Shown piece after piece: positions 10,504 through 30,982 of a stretch of 49,162 nt of DNA. Position numbers and translations under genes: made by a program. The stretch covers positions 1 through 49,162 of IMG/VR virus record IMGVR_UViG_3300027973_000075; one strand, written 5' to 3'. How positions within the stretch are numbered: the stretch's first letter is position 1; each line of letters starts with the position of its first letter. The notes under the pieces are model-generated. The model was not told where the DNA came from, did not search any database, and saw only the letters and a list, made by a program, of their open reading frames with translations. The stretch comes from a virus.

Positions 10504-10728
10504 TCACAAAACCCGCCAGAACCGCATCCCCAATTTACCTGATTCAATTCGTTCCCAACCCACAACAATAAAACCACGCCGCTCGGCTTCTTTTGTCACT
10601 TGCTTACGCAGCTTGGTCAGGTTTACTGCGGGAACAAAAACGGATGCCCCTATGACGAGATCATGCCACGCCACAAAAATAGGAATCCCGTCAGGTTGGA
10701 TCGGAGACAATGATTGGTAACTCGTCAT
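10504..10728 (-). CDS. Small hypothetical protein at end of replication operon
   Basis: 74 residues from ATG at 10728 (MTSYQSLSPIQPDG). A further in-frame ATG at 10761 would add 11 residues but lies deeper inside the upstream gene. The start overlaps the 3' end of the primase-helicase gene by 38 bases. The sequence is a mixed alpha/beta pattern (PIFVAWHDLVIGASVFVPAVN then a basic helix). It resembles small phage proteins of unknown function. No motif allows a role to be named. Confidence 0.55.
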   Translation of the reverse strand: MTSYQSLSPIQPDGIPIFVAWHDLVIGASVFVPAVNLTKLRKQVTKEAERRGFIVVGWERIESGKLGMRFWRVL

Positions 10729-13540
10729 CACTAAACTCAGTACAATCAAGCACCCAGACATCTGCGGAAGGTAGGTTCATGTTAGTACCTTTACCCATAC
10801 GTATCTTCTTAGACACGGTTCGGGTCTTACCTTCCTTCAAACCATTAATCAATGCCGAATAGTTATGCTGATTACGGACACACCACTGTCTCAACGGTTT
10901 CGGCAATAAGTACATCTTCTTAACGTCGTACTCGTACCGTGCGACTAGCGACATTCTCGGCGTTGCATCTGGCACAATAAGATGTTCTAGTGCATCATTG
11001 TTACCCCGGGCGTCGTCGGTACTACGAATACGCAATACGTTGTTGTAGTTCTCGGACAGATAGCTGGCTAAAAGGTCTTCAACTGTACCACTCATAGTGG
11101 CTAACTCTGCTTTCGCCGTGATCAGTACATCAATAATCCACGCCACAATCGCTTGAATATCAAAATCAATTAAGCCAACTCGTTTGGCTATGGTCAACCC
11201 TGTAATGCTCGATGCTGCCTGAACTGACCAGAACCGATGCGGCTGAGACAAACCCGCTGCTAAATCAATACGTCTTTGGGTATCTTTAAATAGCTCATTA
11301 ACTTCTGCTAGGTTTTGGATTACATACTGCATGTACGGTATACACGCATGACCATAGTGCTGAGTAATTGCAACACTCAAATCATCTGTTTCGGCTTTGT
11401 TATCAAACTTATGTGGCTCAACTCGGTATTCAAGTACGCGACCCGCTTCCGCTTTTGGTACAGCTTTATACAAGCTAACCCGCTCTAACAAACTAGTGTT
11501 ACCTGTACTGACTCCATTAGTGTGCCACGGTGCTCCACGGAATCTTTCTTCGTTGCCTTTACCGGACATACGGTTCTTCTGCAAACCGCCAGTAATCTGG
11601 TACATCATATCGCTTGCGTCTTTAGGTTCAATATTGGTTAACTCGTCGAACACAGCAAAGACGTTCTTCAACATCTCCAGCCGGTTCATCTTTGAGTTCG
11701 GTGTATCTTGTTCCTGCATGATTAGCTGATCAGGATTACCCCAAATACCCAACGCTGCTTTCGATGCTGTAGTTTTACCCACGCCTGTATCTTTACTATA
11801 CATATGAAACAGACTAGCATTGATCGGCGTAAACGCCACAAGCGGAGAACCAAAGCTCAACCCAATGACGTATTGATGAAGCTCCATCTTAGGTCGGTTG
11901 TAGAACCCCATGATGGTACGCCAACCTTCAATAGTTCCTTTGCTTTGGAACGCCGAAAACAATGTGGAAGTAGATTTTGATGGCGGGTTTATATCTACAC
12001 GGTCACCACGAATATCTTTCTCACCAACAATAAACGCTATCTTACGGTCATCCGACCAACCAAATTGACGATGGGCTAAATCGGCGGCAGTTGTAGCTTG
12101 CAGCTTGTTCACCCATGAATTTGTATACGACATAAGTTCTCCCATATCTAACACCGCAACCCCTTTTGGGGCGACACTTTTTCTAAACTCATCCTTAGAC
12201 AACAAGTTAACCAGAGGTACAGTAAACTCTCTTACCCCGTCTTTCGGTAGATGCAAACGCATAACAACTGACTCACCTACGTCTGGGTCGTTCAAGCGCC
12301 GTGTGATGTACATATCATTGTGGTACACCGCTACTTCAATAGGGTCGCCTTCTTTGTCTTTGGCTTTCTTAAACACTCCCCCTGCCTTACCGCGAAAGTA
12401 TGGGGCTGGGTACTGCGGAATTACGTACGTCTGTAGTGGTATCTCAATATCTATTTCTGGGCGGTCTTGAACAATATTATCCTCGCCACTCGCCTCTTGA
12501 ACTTCACGCCCAAGCACAATCGGACTACCAAACTTACCTTTGAATGGACAATCGCCACACACTCCGGGGTTATACTCATCGAACGTTGTGCACCGGTACG
12601 GCCCTTTGATTGATGCTACACGTTTCTCAGTTGTTGTTGGGTTGTAGTCAGGATGCCCCGACGATAACTTATGTATTGCCTTCTCACCATCCGTACAAAA
12701 CTTAGCCACCGACAACGCGGCGATCCATAACGAGTACCCAATACTGGCTCTATTAGTGAACGCATAGCCTAGCTGTGCACATCCCTTACCTGCTACCGTC
12801 TTCTGCATAATCAGCTTGAACGAATTACTATAGCTACCTGCTAACGCATTAGTAACGTCATCCATTACATTCGGCACAAACCTACTGCTGCTAACAGTAA
12901 CGTCTTCAAAGCATTCTGCAAATCTTTCTAGCAATACTGAAGGCGCAAGCTCTCCTACAATACCTACATTTGACGGTGGGGCATCTTTAAAGTTAAGCGT
13001 CTCAGGTACTCGTAAGATACGTGCTGCATCCGCCGGAACCGAGGGGTCAATTATTAAACCGTTTTGTTTACATGCTTCTTTAAGTTTTTCTGCTACTGGA
13101 TACCAATCGTCTACCGATATAGCTTCAGTCAAAGGCCAGTACGCATGAATACCTCTACCGGAATTAACCAGTGTAGGTTTAGGTAAGGACATTAACTTAC
13201 AGAACTTACGTAACTCGGCAAGCCCGGTTGCTTGATCTATGTACCCTTCAATAACACCTTTGTCGTTGGGCACTGCCTTAGTCGGGCCGCAATCAATATC
13301 TAAGTAGAATGCTTTCTTGTGTTTTACATTTGCAGCCTTACTCGATTTATCAGTTTCAAACGTAGCCGTAGAAAAGTACGCATCGAACCCTTCCAACGGA
13401 ATATTCTTTGCACGTTCATACGCTTCCTCAATCGAGGAGTGTAACTTCCGCACTGTTACTTCAGTAGCTATATCTATACTGATAGTGCAGTAGTAACCTT
13501 CATCGCTCAGGACTGACTTTAAAAATTCTATTGTTTGCAT
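10691..13540 (-). CDS. Primase-helicase fusion protein
   Basis: 949 residues. The N-terminal domain fits an archaeo-eukaryotic-type primase: DID at 81-83, SGRGIHAYW at 127-135, and DAARILRVPxTxNFK around 171-185. A Cys cluster (C...YNPGVCGDC) near residues 315-330 may bind zinc. The C-terminal half holds a P-loop ATPase: Walker A KDTGVGKTTAS near 580 and Walker B FAVFDELT near 630, which would form the replicative helicase motor. It is expected to prime and unwind DNA at the phage fork. It has no Shine-Dalgarno sequence and starts ATGCAAACAATAGAA behind a perfect hairpin, as does the SNF2-like gene upstream. Confidence 0.85.
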   Translation of the reverse strand: MQTIEFLKSVLSDEGYYCTISIDIATEVTVRKLHSSIEEAYERAKNIPLEGFDAYFSTATFETDKSSKAANVKHKKAFYLDIDCGPTKAVPNDKGVIEGYIDQATGLAELRKFCKLMSLPKPTLVNSGRGIHAYWPLTEAISVDDWYPVAEKLKEACKQNGLIIDPSVPADAARILRVPETLNFKDAPPSNVGIVGELAPSVLLERFAECFEDVTVSSSRFVPNVMDDVTNALAGSYSNSFKLIMQKTVAGKGCAQLGYAFTNRASIGYSLWIAALSVAKFCTDGEKAIHKLSSGHPDYNPTTTEKRVASIKGPYRCTTFDEYNPGVCGDCPFKGKFGSPIVLGREVQEASGEDNIVQDRPEIDIEIPLQTYVIPQYPAPYFRGKAGGVFKKAKDKEGDPIEVAVYHNDMYITRRLNDPDVGESVVMRLHLPKDGVREFTVPLVNLLSKDEFRKSVAPKGVAVLDMGELMSYTNSWVNKLQATTAADLAHRQFGWSDDRKIAFIVGEKDIRGDRVDINPPSKSTSTLFSAFQSKGTIEGWRTIMGFYNRPKMELHQYVIGLSFGSPLVAFTPINASLFHMYSKDTGVGKTTASKAALGIWGNPDQLIMQEQDTPNSKMNRLEMLKNVFAVFDELTNIEPKDASDMMYQITGGLQKNRMSGKGNEERFRGAPWHTNGVSTGNTSLLERVSLYKAVPKAEAGRVLEYRVEPHKFDNKAETDDLSVAITQHYGHACIPYMQYVIQNLAEVNELFKDTQRRIDLAAGLSQPHRFWSVQAASSITGLTIAKRVGLIDFDIQAIVAWIIDVLITAKAELATMSGTVEDLLASYLSENYNNVLRIRSTDDARGNNDALEHLIVPDATPRMSLVARYEYDVKKMYLLPKPLRQWCVRNQHNYSALINGLKEGKTRTVSKKIRMGKGTNMNLPSADVWVLDCTEFSDDELPIIVSDPT

Positions 13541-14498: not shown

Positions 14499-14753
14499 CT
14501 AAATATCTTCATCGGGGTTAAAATCCAACTCTAATTGGTTGGGGTTGGGGGTTACTACTTTTGGTTCAACTTCTTGCGGCGTATCGTTACGCAACACAGC
14601 CTCAACCTCAGGAAGTCTGAAGCGGTACGTGCTACCCAACTTTAGGTATGTGCTAGGCGGGATACTCTCGCTTCTGATCCAACCACGTACGGTCGATACA
14701 GACACATTAAAATATTTTGCTACCTCAATGATTGTTACGTAATGTGGTTCCAT
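14499..14753 (-). CDS. Excisionase / MerR-type HTH DNA-binding protein
   Basis: 84 residues. Residues 5-55 fit a winged-helix excisionase-like domain: TIIEVAKYFNVSVSTVRGWI is the helix-turn-helix, followed by a Tyr-Arg-Phe wing (TYRFRLPEVEAVL). The rest is an acidic tail (QLELDFNPDEDI). The start overlaps the previous stop as TAATG. In phages such proteins act as small regulators or recombination directionality factors. No integrase is visible here, so a regulatory or replication-accessory role is more likely. It is one candidate for recognising the dispersed palindromes. Confidence 0.7.
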   Translation of the reverse strand: MEPHYVTIIEVAKYFNVSVSTVRGWIRSESIPPSTYLKLGSTYRFRLPEVEAVLRNDTPQEVEPKVVTPNPNQLELDFNPDEDI

Positions 14754-25710: not shown

Positions 25711-26901
25711 TTAGTCAATCTCTACGTGTACGGTATGTCCGAACGGTGCAGTCGTGTTCGGGTTACCAACGATTACCCACAGGGTAGGCACAGACCACTC
25801 ACCCCAATCACCACCAAGGTAGCCATCGGTTATGATGATCACACCCTGCGGTGTTATAGCTTTCTCACGCAGGTAGTCAGACACACAATTAACGTATGTC
25901 CCACCACCACCTTTAGGTTTAGTAGACTGCAACATGTTCTGGTAATCACCCTGCTCGTAGTACTCATCCCCGCACACCTCGGTGTCCCAGTACAGCAGAC
26001 GAATCCCCGCCGGATTAACGGAATCGGCAATGTTTGCCACCTCGCCTAGTATCTGCGCGATCTCGTTAGCGCCAATAGACCCTGACATATCGTTAGCAAT
26101 AACAAGTTCACCTACTACATCCGATATACCACTAGGCATGACCATGTTGTATCCCAAGTACCTACGGTTAGGCTTAGACCACGTAGAGTAATCACTACCT
26201 GCACACGTATCACATACCCACTCACGCAAGGCAGCTTTGTAGTCCACCTTACTAGCAAGTATGTCCTCGATCAGACGCGCACCACCTGACCCATTCTTAC
26301 CTGCAAGTAACGCACCTTGACGTAGTGCTTGGTCGATAGCTTGTTCGAGTTCTTTCTTCTCGGCCTCGTCCATCTCCTCCGCACCATCCCAATCATGATC
26401 ATCCATAGACCCTTGACCTTGACCCTGACCATTCTCATCACTACTGGGTAACAACTTAAACACAGCATCGGCATCCATACCTTTGTACTTGGCATCGTAC
26501 AAACCCATACTAGGCATAGTGATGAACCCCTTACCTGCATCGTAGTCGATCAACATACCGTTGATAACATAGTCACACGCTCGGTTACACCTATCCGCGT
26601 CCAGCTTGTTCAAGTAGTCATACGTGGTTAGATGTTTCAACAAGATATGAAACACCTCGTGCAGTACAAGGAAGCGTAGCTCTGCATCGTTAAGCGTAGC
26701 CACAAAGTCGTCCAGATACCACGTATGTTTACCGTTAGTCGCAGCAGTACGTATACGCTTCGGGTTATCCTTAGTGACCACCGTATGATCACCAATCATT
26801 AACAACCCATTGATACCATCGTAATCGGTGTTGCCCATAACAGCAGCCACAGCTTTCAGTACACGATCACGTGGCGCGATCTCTTTACCAATCATTAACA
26901 T
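25711..26901 (-). CDS. VWA-like protein with N-terminal metallopeptidase domain
   Basis: 396 residues. The N-terminal domain has HEVFHILLKH (81-90), an HExxH zinc site, followed by DADRCNRACDYVIN. A Gly/Gln-rich acidic linker (about 152-190) joins it to a VWA domain with the MIDAS motif DMSGS (271-275) and later IIIITDG. This two-domain order fits the family I know as DUF2201 (putative metallopeptidase plus VWA-like). It follows the MoxR-type ATPase gene on the same strand. VWA proteins are the usual partners of MoxR ATPases. Palindrome copy 3 lies 17 bases before its start. Confidence 0.85.
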   Translation of the reverse strand: MLMIGKEIAPRDRVLKAVAAVMGNTDYDGINGLLMIGDHTVVTKDNPKRIRTAATNGKHTWYLDDFVATLNDAELRFLVLHEVFHILLKHLTTYDYLNKLDADRCNRACDYVINGMLIDYDAGKGFITMPSMGLYDAKYKGMDADAVFKLLPSSDENGQGQGQGSMDDHDWDGAEEMDEAEKKELEQAIDQALRQGALLAGKNGSGGARLIEDILASKVDYKAALREWVCDTCAGSDYSTWSKPNRRYLGYNMVMPSGISDVVGELVIANDMSGSIGANEIAQILGEVANIADSVNPAGIRLLYWDTEVCGDEYYEQGDYQNMLQSTKPKGGGGTYVNCVSDYLREKAITPQGVIIITDGYLGGDWGEWSVPTLWVIVGNPNTTAPFGHTVHVEID

Positions 26902-26918
26902 AAGTCACCTATTAAAAA

Positions 26919-26936
26919 GTTATACTGCGGTATAAG
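26919..26936. promoter_or_regulatory. Operator-like palindrome, copy 3
   Basis: GTTATACTGCGGTATAAG (most diverged, outer base changed), between the MoxR gene and the VWA gene start. Confidence 0.7.
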
Positions 26937-26944
26937 TTTATTTC

Positions 26945-28057
26945 TTACTTCTTGTCCGTCACAGCGATGAAGTTATTATCCAAGCACCACTTAGTAAACT
27001 TGGCGTTACTCATTACCTCGTCACGCTTGGCGTAGTTGTTCTTACGTACCTGCATAGCGAACATAACCTGTAACTCACGTGGCAGACGCGCAAGGTAGTC
27101 CATCCATGAGTCCATCCAGTTACGCTCGATACATGACAACGTGCGATAGACGACCATACTACAAGCGACCGGTGCAGTCGGCACATCAGCAGTAAGCGGT
27201 GACTTCTTAATAGAATCTAAGCTAGGTAACTGATCCCCAACTGCAACGAACGCAGCCAATTCAGCAGCAGCCTTGTTACCGATAGTACCGATCAATGCAG
27301 ATGTCAACTCATGCGTAGACAACTCACTACGTACCTTCAACCAATCACTTGCTGCATGACATGAACGCCATGTAAAGAACGCCTCACGACCCTTGTCTTT
27401 CGGGTGATAGATGTACTCGTTTGTTTTAGGATCATCTACCTCGTCGAACTTAGCAGCCAAGTCCTTCTTGTAACGATCATCCAATACGAACGCAATCATT
27501 ACTGGATCAATACCCTGCGGTATAGCAAAGTTCTCGACCCACTCTTCGGTTGTGCTGTTACGCATACGGAATATAGTCATACGATTACGCGCATGTGGTG
27601 GCAACAGATCACCCACACCCTCTGCACCTAGATTAGTAGTGGCAAAGATTATGCTGTCAGGATGTAGCTTGTAACCTGCGAACTCACGCTCTAACATGAA
27701 GCGCAACAGTGCATTCTTTACTGAGTTGTTAGCCTTACCGAACTCGTCGATCATTACGATCACAGGCTTACCCAAGTGAATACCCAACTCCTCATGTGGT
27801 ATGAAGCGCACACACCCATCACGATCAACGTGCTGTAACACAGGCAACGCCATGTCACCCAAGTCCTTAGTTGTGCAGTCAAAGTACACAGTAGTATGTG
27901 TAGGTAGGCGTTCGCCCAACATCTTTAGGATCGATGACTTACCTGACCCCATGTGACCCTGCACTAGGGTAGTACGACCACGATTAGCCAACATCAGGTT
28001 GACGCATTGGTTGATTGATACTTCGTAAAGTTTTGATACGTTTGATCCGTTTGACAT
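26945..28057 (-). CDS. MoxR-type AAA+ ATPase
   Basis: 370 residues from ATG 28057, which has TATAGGTGA upstream (the GTG at 28066 is in frame but is part of that site). Walker A GHMGSGKSS at 34-42, Walker B VIMIDEFGKA at 99-108, sensor 1 IIFATTNL near 140, and a probable Arg finger in PPHARNR. These fit the MoxR/dynein-related AAA+ clade. Such ATPases form rings that pair with VWA proteins to remodel targets. The VWA/metallopeptidase gene follows 43 bases downstream. Palindrome copy 4 lies 92 bases before the start. Confidence 0.85.
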   Translation of the reverse strand: MSNGSNVSKLYEVSINQCVNLMLANRGRTTLVQGHMGSGKSSILKMLGERLPTHTTVYFDCTTKDLGDMALPVLQHVDRDGCVRFIPHEELGIHLGKPVIVMIDEFGKANNSVKNALLRFMLEREFAGYKLHPDSIIFATTNLGAEGVGDLLPPHARNRMTIFRMRNSTTEEWVENFAIPQGIDPVMIAFVLDDRYKKDLAAKFDEVDDPKTNEYIYHPKDKGREAFFTWRSCHAASDWLKVRSELSTHELTSALIGTIGNKAAAELAAFVAVGDQLPSLDSIKKSPLTADVPTAPVACSMVVYRTLSCIERNWMDSWMDYLARLPRELQVMFAMQVRKNNYAKRDEVMSNAKFTKWCLDNNFIAVTDKK

Positions 28058-28109
28058 TTTATTCACCTATAAAGTTGTTAAGATTAAATTTACTACGAGT
28101 CTACATATA

Positions 28110-28196
28110 GTGGTACTACAGGACACGAACCCATGTTGTTTATAAACATCTTATACCGTGGTATAAGTCCGGCGAGTTCGAATCCCGTTTTACCAC
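28110..28196 (+). other. tRNA-like segment (degenerate or novel)
   Basis: Plus strand, 87 bases. GTGGTA (28110-28115) pairs with TACCAC (28191-28196). ATGTT/AACAT (28133-28149) is an anticodon-like arm with a 7-base loop GTTTATA, giving anticodon position TTA. Palindrome copy 4 would be a variable arm. GCGAG-TTCGAAT-CCCGT (28072+100 to 28188, i.e. 28172-28188) is a T-arm with one mismatch. The D-arm lacks the usual conserved bases, and no CCA is encoded directly after. Possibly a tRNA remnant or chance resemblance. Confidence 0.3.
28150..28167. promoter_or_regulatory. Operator-like palindrome, copy 4
   Basis: CTTATACCGTGGTATAAG, between the 304-residue gene and MoxR, inside the tRNA-like segment. 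Confidence 0.75.
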
Positions 28197-28204
28197 ACAC
28201 CTAC

Positions 28205-29119
28205 CTACCACTTCATATTGGACAATACCGCATCGACTTTACGCTTAGTCTCGGCGCGGAAATCATCGTCCTCACGCAACGCCTCAGGAGACACGCCGTA
28301 CATAGCATCCTCCAACGCGACCCGCATGTTGTCCATCTTTACATCGTTGGTTATGTTGAACTTGATAAGCAGACCCATCATGTCCTTGACGTTATCAACT
28401 AGGCTGTCCCTGAATATCTTACGTGTTGCCTTGTCTTCCTTATCTGGGTAGTCTAGCTTCTCGCTCATGTGACGTAATGAATCATACGTACGTTGCCACA
28501 CGTCATTCATCGCGTTTGTTAGCTGTTGCGTGTAGTGCTGTTGGTACTGCGACTGCAAGTACTGGGCTGCGTCCTGTCCGATATTCAACCTAAAGTCCCC
28601 CGCATCTGGGATGATCTGGTACGCATACCTGAACTTGAACTTACCTGCCAGTACATCTGCAAGCGGATAGTCATCAGTGCTAAACAAGTTACCTAGCTTT
28701 AGCTGCGCCTCACCCTGCGCCCATTGGTACGCTGTCAGAAAGTCGTTCGTTAGCTTGTGGAACTCTTGTTCGAGACGTGTTATCTCGTTGTGGTAGTCCA
28801 TGTATGCAGACGTTGGCAGCAAGCGCATCCCCATATCCGACCAAGGCATAGTGCTGTGGTAGTGGAATGTACGTACGTTGCCTGCAAACTTGTGAAGCGC
28901 ATCCAATTCGGCGCAGTCACCCAATAGCTTCTTGTGGAATGACCCTGCTCTGTCATCAGCGCCGTTGGCTTGTGTTGTTTCCTTCGTTGCCCGCTTGTCT
29001 AGCTTGCGACCTGTCCATGTACTGATTGATAGCTCCACGAACATTGCGCTACTAGCGATTGAAGGTACGGACTGCACCTCTGGTGTTGCGAGAGTCATTT
29101 GCATTAATGTGTTTTGCAT
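28205..29119 (-). CDS. Conserved protein upstream of the MoxR/VWA pair
   Basis: 304 residues from ATG 29119 with TATAGGTGAACAAA upstream. N-terminal VELSISTWTGRKLDKRATKE, then KKLLGDCAELDALHKF, PWSDMGMRLLP, and a long helical middle. From memory it resembles the DUF3150-type proteins that often lie beside MoxR and VWA genes in phages; I cannot verify this. It heads the unit carrying the ATPase and VWA genes and has promoter P1 and palindrome copy 5 in its leader. Probable partner or substrate adaptor of the MoxR complex (inference). Confidence 0.6.
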   Translation of the reverse strand: MQNTLMQMTLATPEVQSVPSIASSAMFVELSISTWTGRKLDKRATKETTQANGADDRAGSFHKKLLGDCAELDALHKFAGNVRTFHYHSTMPWSDMGMRLLPTSAYMDYHNEITRLEQEFHKLTNDFLTAYQWAQGEAQLKLGNLFSTDDYPLADVLAGKFKFRYAYQIIPDAGDFRLNIGQDAAQYLQSQYQQHYTQQLTNAMNDVWQRTYDSLRHMSEKLDYPDKEDKATRKIFRDSLVDNVKDMMGLLIKFNITNDVKMDNMRVALEDAMYGVSPEALREDDDFRAETKRKVDAVLSNMKW

Positions 29120-29155
29120 TTTGTTCACCTATAAGTTGTACTGCTGTTGGATTTT

Positions 29156-29173
29156 CTTATACCGTGGTATAAG
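29156..29173. promoter_or_regulatory. Operator-like palindrome, copy 5
   Basis: CTTATACCGTGGTATAAG, in the transcribed leader between promoter P1 and the 304-residue gene. Confidence 0.78.
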
Positions 29174-29219
29174 GTTTGGTTACTGCACCTGCTCACTACG
29201 CTTTACTACTATAAGACAT

Positions 29220-29248
29220 ATTATAACACGATCTGCTATCAAAGTCAA
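29220..29248 (-). promoter_or_regulatory. Promoter P1 (sigma70, extended -10)
   Basis: Minus strand -35 TTGACT (29248-29243), 17-base spacer, -10 TATAAT (29225-29220), preceded by TGT, an extended -10. It drives the 304-residue, MoxR and VWA genes. The sequence around the -35 is identical to that of P2 over 18 bases. Confidence 0.8.
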
Positions 29249-29272
29249 GTATTTGGTAGTTTGTTATTCATT

Positions 29273-30038: not shown

Positions 30039-30065
30039 AAGTCACCTCGTTAGTTATGTGATTTA

Positions 30066-30083
30066 CTTATACTAGAGTATAAG
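30066..30083. promoter_or_regulatory. Operator-like palindrome, copy 6
   Basis: CTTATACTAGAGTATAAG, in the leader between promoter P2 and the 58-residue gene. Confidence 0.78.
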
Positions 30084-30135
30084 TGAAATATAATGCAGTT
30101 GCTTTATTGCTACGCTTTCCCACGTAACAGTATAT

Positions 30136-30164
30136 ATTATAACACAATATGACGTCAAAGTCAA
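30136..30164 (-). promoter_or_regulatory. Promoter P2, near-duplicate of P1
   Basis: Minus strand -35 TTGACT (30164-30159), 17-base spacer, -10 TATAAT (30141-30136) preceded by GTGT. Shares CCAAATACTTGACTTTGA around the -35 with P1. A palindrome copy lies about 50 bases downstream in both. Confidence 0.8.
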
Positions 30165-30197
30165 GTATTTGGCATCGCTTGTTACCGTATGATAATG

Positions 30198-30228
30198 TTC
30201 GTAAAGTTCTTTTTTTGATTTAAATTTT
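30198..30228 (+). repeat. 31-base direct repeat, copy 1
   Basis: Begins GTTCGTAAAGTTCTTTTTTT and continues GATTTAAATTT. The second copy is at 30647-30677. Confidence 0.8.
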
Positions 30229-30350
30229 CAACGTGTTTGTCACGTGTTGAATGTTCTTAAAGTTATTTAGTGTTCGGTTTGTAAAAGTGATGTAAGTCTT
30301 TGAATATAAAGGTAAGATCGTAAAGTTCTTAAAGTTCGGTTCGAAAAAAG

Positions 30351-30409
30351 GGTTGGCGAGCCGATTTAGCTAAGTTGAGGTACAACTCCGCGAGGAGGTC
30401 AGAAAAGAC
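30351..30409. other. Cluster of short hairpins, possible structured RNA
   Basis: Within 60 bases: GGC-GA-GCC (30355-30362), TTAGCTAA (30366-30373), AGTTG/CAACT (30373-30387), CTCC-GCGA-GGAG with a GNRA tetraloop (30386-30397), and GTC/GAC (30398-30409). It is GC-richer than its surroundings. This could be a small RNA or protein-binding RNA. Confidence 0.35.
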
Positions 30410-30564
30410 AGGGAAATTTAGATTCTGGACACAACTATGTAAAAAAGACCGAACTTTCGAACATTATGATTTTTGTGAAGGTTTGATACATTTTGATAGG
30501 CAAGAAAGAGCGTTAGATACCAATAGATAACGTCAGATACAACGCATTACCACGCATTGATAAT

Positions 30565-30592
30565 GTTCGGTTTTTTTTAGGCAAAACCGAAC
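30565..30592. repeat. 10-bp perfect inverted repeat
   Basis: GTTCGGTTTT (30565-30574), 8-base loop, AAAACCGAAC (30583-30592), flanked by the recurrent GAACTTTACGAAC-type motif. Confidence 0.75.
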
Positions 30593-30646
30593 TTTTAAGA
30601 ACTTTACGAACAAACAACATTCCATATCGACAACCTTTGTTATTTG

Positions 30647-30677
30647 TTCGTAAAGTTCTTTTTTTGATTTAAATTTT
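30647..30677 (+). repeat. 31-base direct repeat, copy 2
   Basis: Same sequence as 30198-30228. It overlaps the left arm of the 27-bp inverted repeat. Confidence 0.8.
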
Positions 30678-30683
30678 AAACTA

Positions 30684-30701
30684 CTTATACTGTGGTATAA
30701 G
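30684..30701. promoter_or_regulatory. Operator-like palindrome, copy 7
   Basis: CTTATACTGTGGTATAAG, inside the spacer of the 27-bp inverted repeat. Confidence 0.72.
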
Positions 30702-30760
30702 AAAACAAAAAGATATCATTGTTGAAATAAAAAAAAGAACTTTACGAACAAATAACGTTC

Positions 30761-30794
30761 TACGCCACGCTGCTTTGGTTACTGGCATCAAGAG
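30761..30794 (+). repeat. 34-base direct repeat, copy A
   Basis: Begins TACGCCACGCTGCTTTGG. Identical to 30913-30946; a diverged third copy lies at 30823-30854. Confidence 0.85.
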
Positions 30795-30822
30795 ATATGC
30801 GTTTCAGTTATATCATGGGCTG

Positions 30823-30854
30823 TGCGCCACGCTGCTTGAGTTACTGGTATCGGG
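30823..30854 (+). repeat. 34-base repeat, diverged copy B
   Basis: TGCGCCACGCTGCTTGAG and onward; differs from copies A and C at several positions. It is directly followed by palindrome copy 8. Confidence 0.7.
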
Positions 30855-30855
30855 A

Positions 30856-30873
30856 CTTATACTGCGGTATAAG
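30856..30873. promoter_or_regulatory. Operator-like palindrome, copy 8
   Basis: CTTATACTGCGGTATAAG, directly after diverged 34-base repeat copy B. Confidence 0.72.
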
Positions 30874-30912
30874 AAAATAAAGAGAGGTTATATTGAGCCA
30901 CGCATTACGCTG

Positions 30913-30946
30913 TACGCCACGCTGCTTTGGTTACTGGCATCAAGAG
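30913..30946 (+). repeat. 34-base direct repeat, copy C
   Basis: Exact copy of 30761-30794, ending just before the terminator at 30951-30980. Confidence 0.85.
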
Positions 30947-30950
30947 GGCG

Positions 30951-30980
30951 AAAAAAAACCCCGCTTTCGCAGGGTTTTTA
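30951..30980 (-). terminator. Intrinsic terminator after the 33-residue membrane gene
   Basis: Minus strand: A-tract, CCCTGC, GAAA loop, GCGGGG, then eight T's. A clear terminator that isolates the upstream unit from the repeat region. Confidence 0.8.
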
Positions 30981-30982
30981 AA

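Follow-up and report, generated by a model that had tools for sequence, protein, structure and literature searches.

What function is served by a repeat-dense stretch of non-coding DNA at the point where the leftward early and rightward late genes of a phage diverge? The stretch lies in a 49,162 bp piece (the window, which is the whole of the DNA analysed here) of an uncultured tailed phage with a genome of roughly 60 kb, the longest relatives found being 60–64 kb. Of all the intervals that separate the ORFs taken as genes in the window, the one holding it is the longest (30039–31126, 1088 nt), as the initial annotation had recognised, and it has a GC content of 36% over 30165–30945, against 43–48% for most of the window. 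Genes run leftward from 31.67 kb down to 10.7 kb, those for the replication proteins included, and mostly rightward from 31.9 kb on, where the terminase, portal, and other late genes are found. Taken as a whole, the evidence is best explained by 30190–30945 being the replication origin of the phage, at which an initiator would bind the iterons and an A/T-rich element would open, and this is considered probable.

Table 1. Positions of the features in and around the repeat region, in window coordinates.
Feature	Position	Strand	Basis or remark
Proposed replication origin region, whole	30190–30945		Non-coding; layout kept in 14 unalignable groups of relatives
Leftward promoter TTGACT-17-TATAAT, extended -10	30136–30164	-	Strong; paralogous copy at 29220–29248, ~0.9 kb further left
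GTTCGTAAAGTTC iteron, exact	30197–30209	+	AATGTTC core at 30194
Iteron variant AATGTTCTTAAAGTTA	30250–30265	+	Repeat listing
Two overlapping iteron variants, one mismatch each (from 30316 and 30325)	30316–30337	+	Motif count
AATGTTC core	30459–30465	-	Conserved in L113
AATGTTCGG iteron core with 10 bp inverted repeat	30562–30592		Read from sequence
GTTCGTAAAGTTC iteron, exact	30599–30611	-	Motif count
GTTCGTAAAGTTC iteron, exact	30646–30658	+	Motif count
GTTCGTAAAGTTC iteron, exact	30737–30749	-	Motif count
27 bp perfect inverted repeat, arms 30639–30665 and 30730–30756	30639–30756		Arms located in window
Candidate DNA unwinding element, least stable 100 bp of window	30636–30735		Nearest-neighbour stability
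29 bp box, copy 1	30761–30789	+	Direct repeat
29 bp box, copy 2	30823–30851	+	Direct repeat
29 bp box, copy 3	30913–30941	+	Direct repeat
Palindrome (operator-like), inside unwinding element	30684–30701		Nine-site set
Palindrome (operator-like), 4 bp after box 2	30856–30873		Nine-site set
Palindrome upstream of first leftward gene	30066–30083		Nine-site set
Palindrome upstream of DUF3150 gene	29156–29173		Nine-site set
Palindrome between 179-aa gene and late genes	31793–31810		Nine-site set
Terminator hairpin, A-run/T-run on both sides	~30957–30976		Read from sequence; counterpart in relatives
179-aa all-helical protein gene beside region	31127–31666	-	Confident structure model
Small HTH_17 (excisionase-like) protein, possible helper	14499–14753	-	Domain match
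DUF927 primase-helicase, 949 aa, candidate initiator	10691–13540	-	DUF927 domain, Cch similarity

The motif that had been reported to recur in both orientations, GTTCGTAAAGTTC, does so. There are four exact copies and two with one mismatch, six in all where 0.02 would be expected from shuffles of the whole window, and every one is within 30197–30749, with none at 0–1 mismatch in the rest of the window. At up to three mismatches there are seven in the stretch, as against a mean of 0.51 and a maximum of 3 in 200 first-order Markov simulations. The perfect inverted repeats described earlier are likewise present, one with arms of 27 bp (Table 1) and one with arms of 10 bp (GTTCGGTTTT/AAAACCGAAC at 30565–30574 and 30583–30592); 30227–30251 was ruled out as the latter, its arms being imperfect. 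Overlooked in the initial annotation were the 29 bp direct repeats, the terminator hairpin, the strong leftward promoter, and seven palindromes outside the stretch. The 29 bp element, referred to here as the box, is present in three direct copies with 0 expected; sigma-54 and IHF readings of it were inspected by eye and discarded. The iterons first described are one of two conserved repeat types, with neither of which the palindromes belong, these forming a set of their own that is lineage-specific. The short repeat, being present in several copies and conserved, qualifies as a candidate initiator-binding iteron.

The two operator-like palindromes seen in the stretch are members of a set of nine TTATAC-N4-GTATAA sites in the window, where 0.01 would be expected. 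All nine are outside the ORFs taken as genes, mostly 17–30 bp upstream of leftward gene starts; two are inside the region, one is before the late genes, and most of the others are ahead of early genes. In the relatives the arrangement is the same but the palindromes differ, examples being TGTTAGTG-N3-CACTAACA and TTCGGGCA-NN-TGCCCGAA. In 26 of the 39 loci, the first box is followed at a distance of 1–7 bp by an exact palindrome. These sites look like the operators of a phage regulator, the specificity of which would change while the iterons and boxes stay. No repressor for them was recognised. The 179-aa protein, considered as the binder and set aside, has no significant fold match in the PDB or the viral library; a relative's copy of it has no homologue in the phage collection. 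A partial Mantel test for the binder favoured the DUF3150 protein over the 179-aa protein, which may reflect that the DUF3150 protein tracks phylogeny. Elsewhere in the window, 28110–28196 (plus strand) has a tRNA-like fold (z -2.83), with an acceptor-like stem GTGGTA/TACCAC, an anticodon-like hairpin, and a T-loop-like GTTCGAATC, in which the palindrome at 28150–28167 replaces the long variable arm. This fold was not called by ARAGORN and has only a sub-threshold match to tRNA-Sec in Rfam.

On the right, the terminator hairpin would stop leftward transcription coming from the 179-aa gene. The leftward promoter region on the other side is duplicated, with 29196–29266 and 30110–30184 (minus strand) sharing ~79% identity, each being followed by a palindrome and an early gene. 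Adjoining the origin-like region is a trio of genes (25711–29128, minus strand) for the DUF3150 protein, an AAA ATPase, and a metallopeptidase/VWA-like protein, which is kept in the relatives. Ahead of the terminase genes, TTGACA and TATAGA flank a C-rich spacer at 31936–31965 (plus strand); part of this stretch is kept in about a dozen relatives and it is probably the late promoter.

Relatives were gathered by terminase and DUF3150 protein searches, and 38 of these have the same gene order as the window, giving 39 loci for analysis of the junction when the window is included. By BLASTN clustering, the 39 regions fall into 14 groups without alignment between groups. Most loci have a common layout, made up of GTTC repeats pointing right, an A/T-rich segment, GAAC repeats pointing left, 29 bp boxes, and often a recognisable terminator. 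The end of the box, ACTGG[CT][AT]TC, is in nearly all junctions, usually in 2–4 copies and almost always rightward, the L015 junction having no rightward box. This motif is present at 2.7 per kb in the region and 0.05 outside, and the AATGTTC core at 6.3 and 0.08 per kb, respectively. With one member taken per group, there are 34 rightward and 19 leftward iterons to the left of the A/T-rich segment and 7 and 69 to the right of it; the Fisher p of 3.5e-11 for this orientation is descriptive only, as the 14 groups share ancestry. Right-arm iteron spacings in the relatives are mostly 8–12 bp, about one helical turn, while those in the window are less regular and its array is less cleanly two-armed than at most loci. 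No recognisable GAAC iterons are present in two of the 14 groups (L071 and L153). In L113, ~470 bp of the region is kept at 73% identity, with the repeats best preserved; its DUF3150 protein is 92% identical to that of the window and the small genes just left of the region are unrelated. A strict promoter pattern is matched in 15 of the 39 loci. A strict terminator rule is matched in just 21 because it demands an exact stem, and it misses the terminator of the window itself.

Since relatives with DNA that cannot be aligned keep the same layout, this region is very probably where replication starts. Evidence against an origin, according to the initial annotation, would be repeats without conservation in relatives together with skew and coverage placing the start elsewhere; the repeats are conserved, which answers half of this.

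The cultured phages whose terminases come closest (HTVC023P, HTVC027P, 023Pt_psg01, and DSL-LC04) were rejected as relatives of the same layout, their gene order being another one, and there is no box array in the stretches of them that were read. BLASTN of the region against phages returned short matches only. Also discarded was a search with GTTCGTAAAGTTCTTTTT over all viral contigs, which found two near-identical contigs and 16 other matches without a repeat cluster; these 16 have at most one further near copy and resemble unrelated coding sequence. With TTACTGGCATCAAGAG, 25 stretches were matched, the two near-identical contigs among them. In L116 (7515–7642), the box is within a 40 bp tandem repeat at the contig end, which could be a real expansion or an assembly artefact. 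In a distant, cultured phage, Planktothrix phage Pag-Yong1 (L197, 15227–15580), several TGTCATAC repeats are in the gap upstream of the terminase large-subunit gene, which may be an analogous site.

The earlier suggestion that iterons and AT-rich DNA fit an origin is supported by the conservation of the repeats and by the A/T-rich segment being the least stable duplex. When stability was compared over 100 bp segments in the four long records examined, namely the window and three ~62 kb relatives, the minimum fell in the repeat cluster each time; over 80 bp segments, the locus minimum coincided with the A/T-rich segment in 13 of the 14 groups. The cumulative GC-skew minimum, at 32.4 kb, is close to the region and agrees with an origin there, but GC skew follows gene direction, and therefore it and the skew at 4-fold sites were dropped as independent evidence for an origin. 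A point against an origin is that the window has no match to the DnaA box TTWTNCACA. DnaA boxes are common in iteron-type theta origins, though not universal, and are unneeded where one protein serves as both initiator and helicase.

A DUF927 helicase was found in all 10 of the records searched. That of the window is similar to the SCCmec Cch helicase (PDB 5dgk, E 4.8e-7), a similarity to the Cch family that is distant, with an NCBIfam score of 39.5 against a cut-off of 700 for that family. According to PMC7581432, the DUF927-type Cch is related to SaPIbov1 Rep, and the C-terminal domain of SaPI Rep recognises the iterons at its origin. One of the 10 records, representing one lineage (G005), has clearly different iterons, GGAACTTT, and in its DUF927 protein the C-terminal domain is more diverged (29–40% identity) than the helicase part (41–48%), a pattern that would fit, weakly, with recognition of the iterons by this domain. 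That the DUF927 helicase binds the GTTC/GAAC repeats is a serious possibility, falling a little short of even chances. No gp38 homologue was recognised.

The conserved layout, with its least stable A/T-rich segment, favours an origin over an expressed structured non-coding RNA, the alternative offered in the initial annotation. It is true that the whole stretch folds far below shuffles (z about -5), but the two strands hardly differ in this, the effect coming from the inverted repeats, and the segment 30336–30450 folds no better than shuffles (z -0.87). No Rfam family reaches threshold for the stretch, the sub-threshold matches being mostly to plant microRNA-type hairpin models, and transcription from the one strong promoter at the stretch would run outward, making such an RNA very improbable. 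Scarcely less improbable is a packaging initiation (pac) site for the terminase small subunit. The presence of two or more direct boxes in the same orientation is reminiscent of repeats bound by terminase in other phages, and the terminase genes are ~1 kb away. These are, however, separated from the region by a leftward gene, a terminator, and a promoter, and packaging needs no melting element. The contigs of many relatives continue through the region, evidence against the genomes having fixed ends at this point. In attP regions, too, A/T-rich DNA can have direct and inverted repeats next to it, and a small excisionase-like HTH protein is encoded, yet a search limited to tyrosine integrases found none in any of the 10 records, so that a phage attachment site for site-specific integration is the least credible reading of all.

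Many of these features could also be found in some other type of protein-binding control region. The main rival, although an unlikely one, is a region that is no origin but serves transcriptional control or partition (centromere-like), in which the palindromes, iterons, and boxes would be regulator sites for the early/late switch or for extrachromosomal maintenance. Consistent with this are the strong promoters on both sides, the spread of nine palindromes of the same family across the early operons, the location between diverging early and late genes, and the absence of a tyrosine integrase from the 10 records. Against it, the iterons and boxes are between the terminator and the outward promoter rather than at promoters, the genes scanned included none recognisable as ParA/ParB-like, and a switch needs no least stable duplex between facing, helically spaced repeats. 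Such repeats, with the weakest duplex between them and a terminator and outward promoter as flanks, do supply what an initiator-melted origin needs.

From the repeats, their layout and conservation, the instability of the duplex, and the presence of the helicase, we infer origin function and initiator binding as follows. An initiator would bind the short GTTC/GAAC iterons, in two facing sets flanking the A/T-rich unwinding element, and the DNA between these sets would open. The most likely initiator would be the phage's own DUF927 primase-helicase, acting like the self-loading helicases SaPI Rep and Cch, perhaps as two hexamers. The boxes on the right flank may serve as a further binding site, likewise conserved, to which the primase-helicase itself or a helper such as the HTH_17 or 179-aa protein would bind. 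The terminator on the right and the early promoter on the left, which points away, would keep the region free of through transcription. Through the lineage-specific palindrome, early transcription and the origin are probably under the joint control of a single phage regulator.

For nearly every uncultured phage, the site at which replication starts is, to our knowledge, not known. As the layout is kept across 14 groups whose sequences can no longer be aligned, it can be used as a search pattern for origins in metagenome phages, in the form of facing GTTC/GAAC sets, an unwinding element, and the 29 bp box. Two further ideas become open to testing, namely that helicases of the self-loading SaPI Rep type drive the replication of entire phage genomes, and that the palindromes, in changing, serve as a code for incompatibility or immunity. 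That this is a replicon design undescribed for tailed phages, with a Cch/SaPI-Rep-like initiator, a distant two-armed origin, a conserved box array, fast-changing and lineage-specific palindromes coupling it to the early regulator, and possibly a role in compatibility during co-infection, is conceivable but doubtful.

Origins made up of iterons and an unwinding element are already known from lambda and SPP1. In SPP1 oriL and oriR, the gp38 origins, direct repeats bound by the initiator are beside an A/T-rich unwinding element (PMC6316719), to which the present region is alike in having direct repeats next to such an element. In the window phage, however, the repeats face each other across it, there is an additional array of 29 bp boxes with interspersed palindromes, and no counterpart of gp38 is recognisable. 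In the lambda ori, the O-protein iterons similarly adjoin an A/T-rich tract that melts (PMC7466680), but that origin is within the O gene, with the tract flanking its four iterons, whereas the window region is non-coding and has repeats on both sides. The replicons of SaPIbov1 Rep and SCCmec Cch, as described in PMC7581432, share with the window phage a DUF927 self-loading helicase and an origin of multiple short iterons. Two differences are that the window protein is a primase-helicase of 949 aa and that the replicons here are entire tailed phages. A third is position, as the SaPI origin, according to the same paper, is directly downstream of rep, while the repeats at 30.2–30.9 kb are ~17 kb from the proposed initiator gene. 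It is because of this distance that the candidate origin is said to work like those of SaPI Rep and Cch, rather than being placed among them. The 17 bp palindromes of Cluster O mycobacteriophages and the stoperators of Cluster A are, like the palindromes here, short sites repeated over a phage genome, with many in one operon (PMC4351075). The stoperators are asymmetric and bound by an immunity repressor, in contrast to the window sites, which are palindromes without a recognised repressor; the window palindrome, unlike the sites of either cluster, is present at nine sites that are all outside the ORFs taken as genes and mostly 17–30 bp ahead of gene starts, differs by lineage, and has some copies inside the origin-like region. 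In its two-sided layout, box array, distant Cch-like helicase, and lineage-specific palindromes, the proposed origin would be a variation on the known type.
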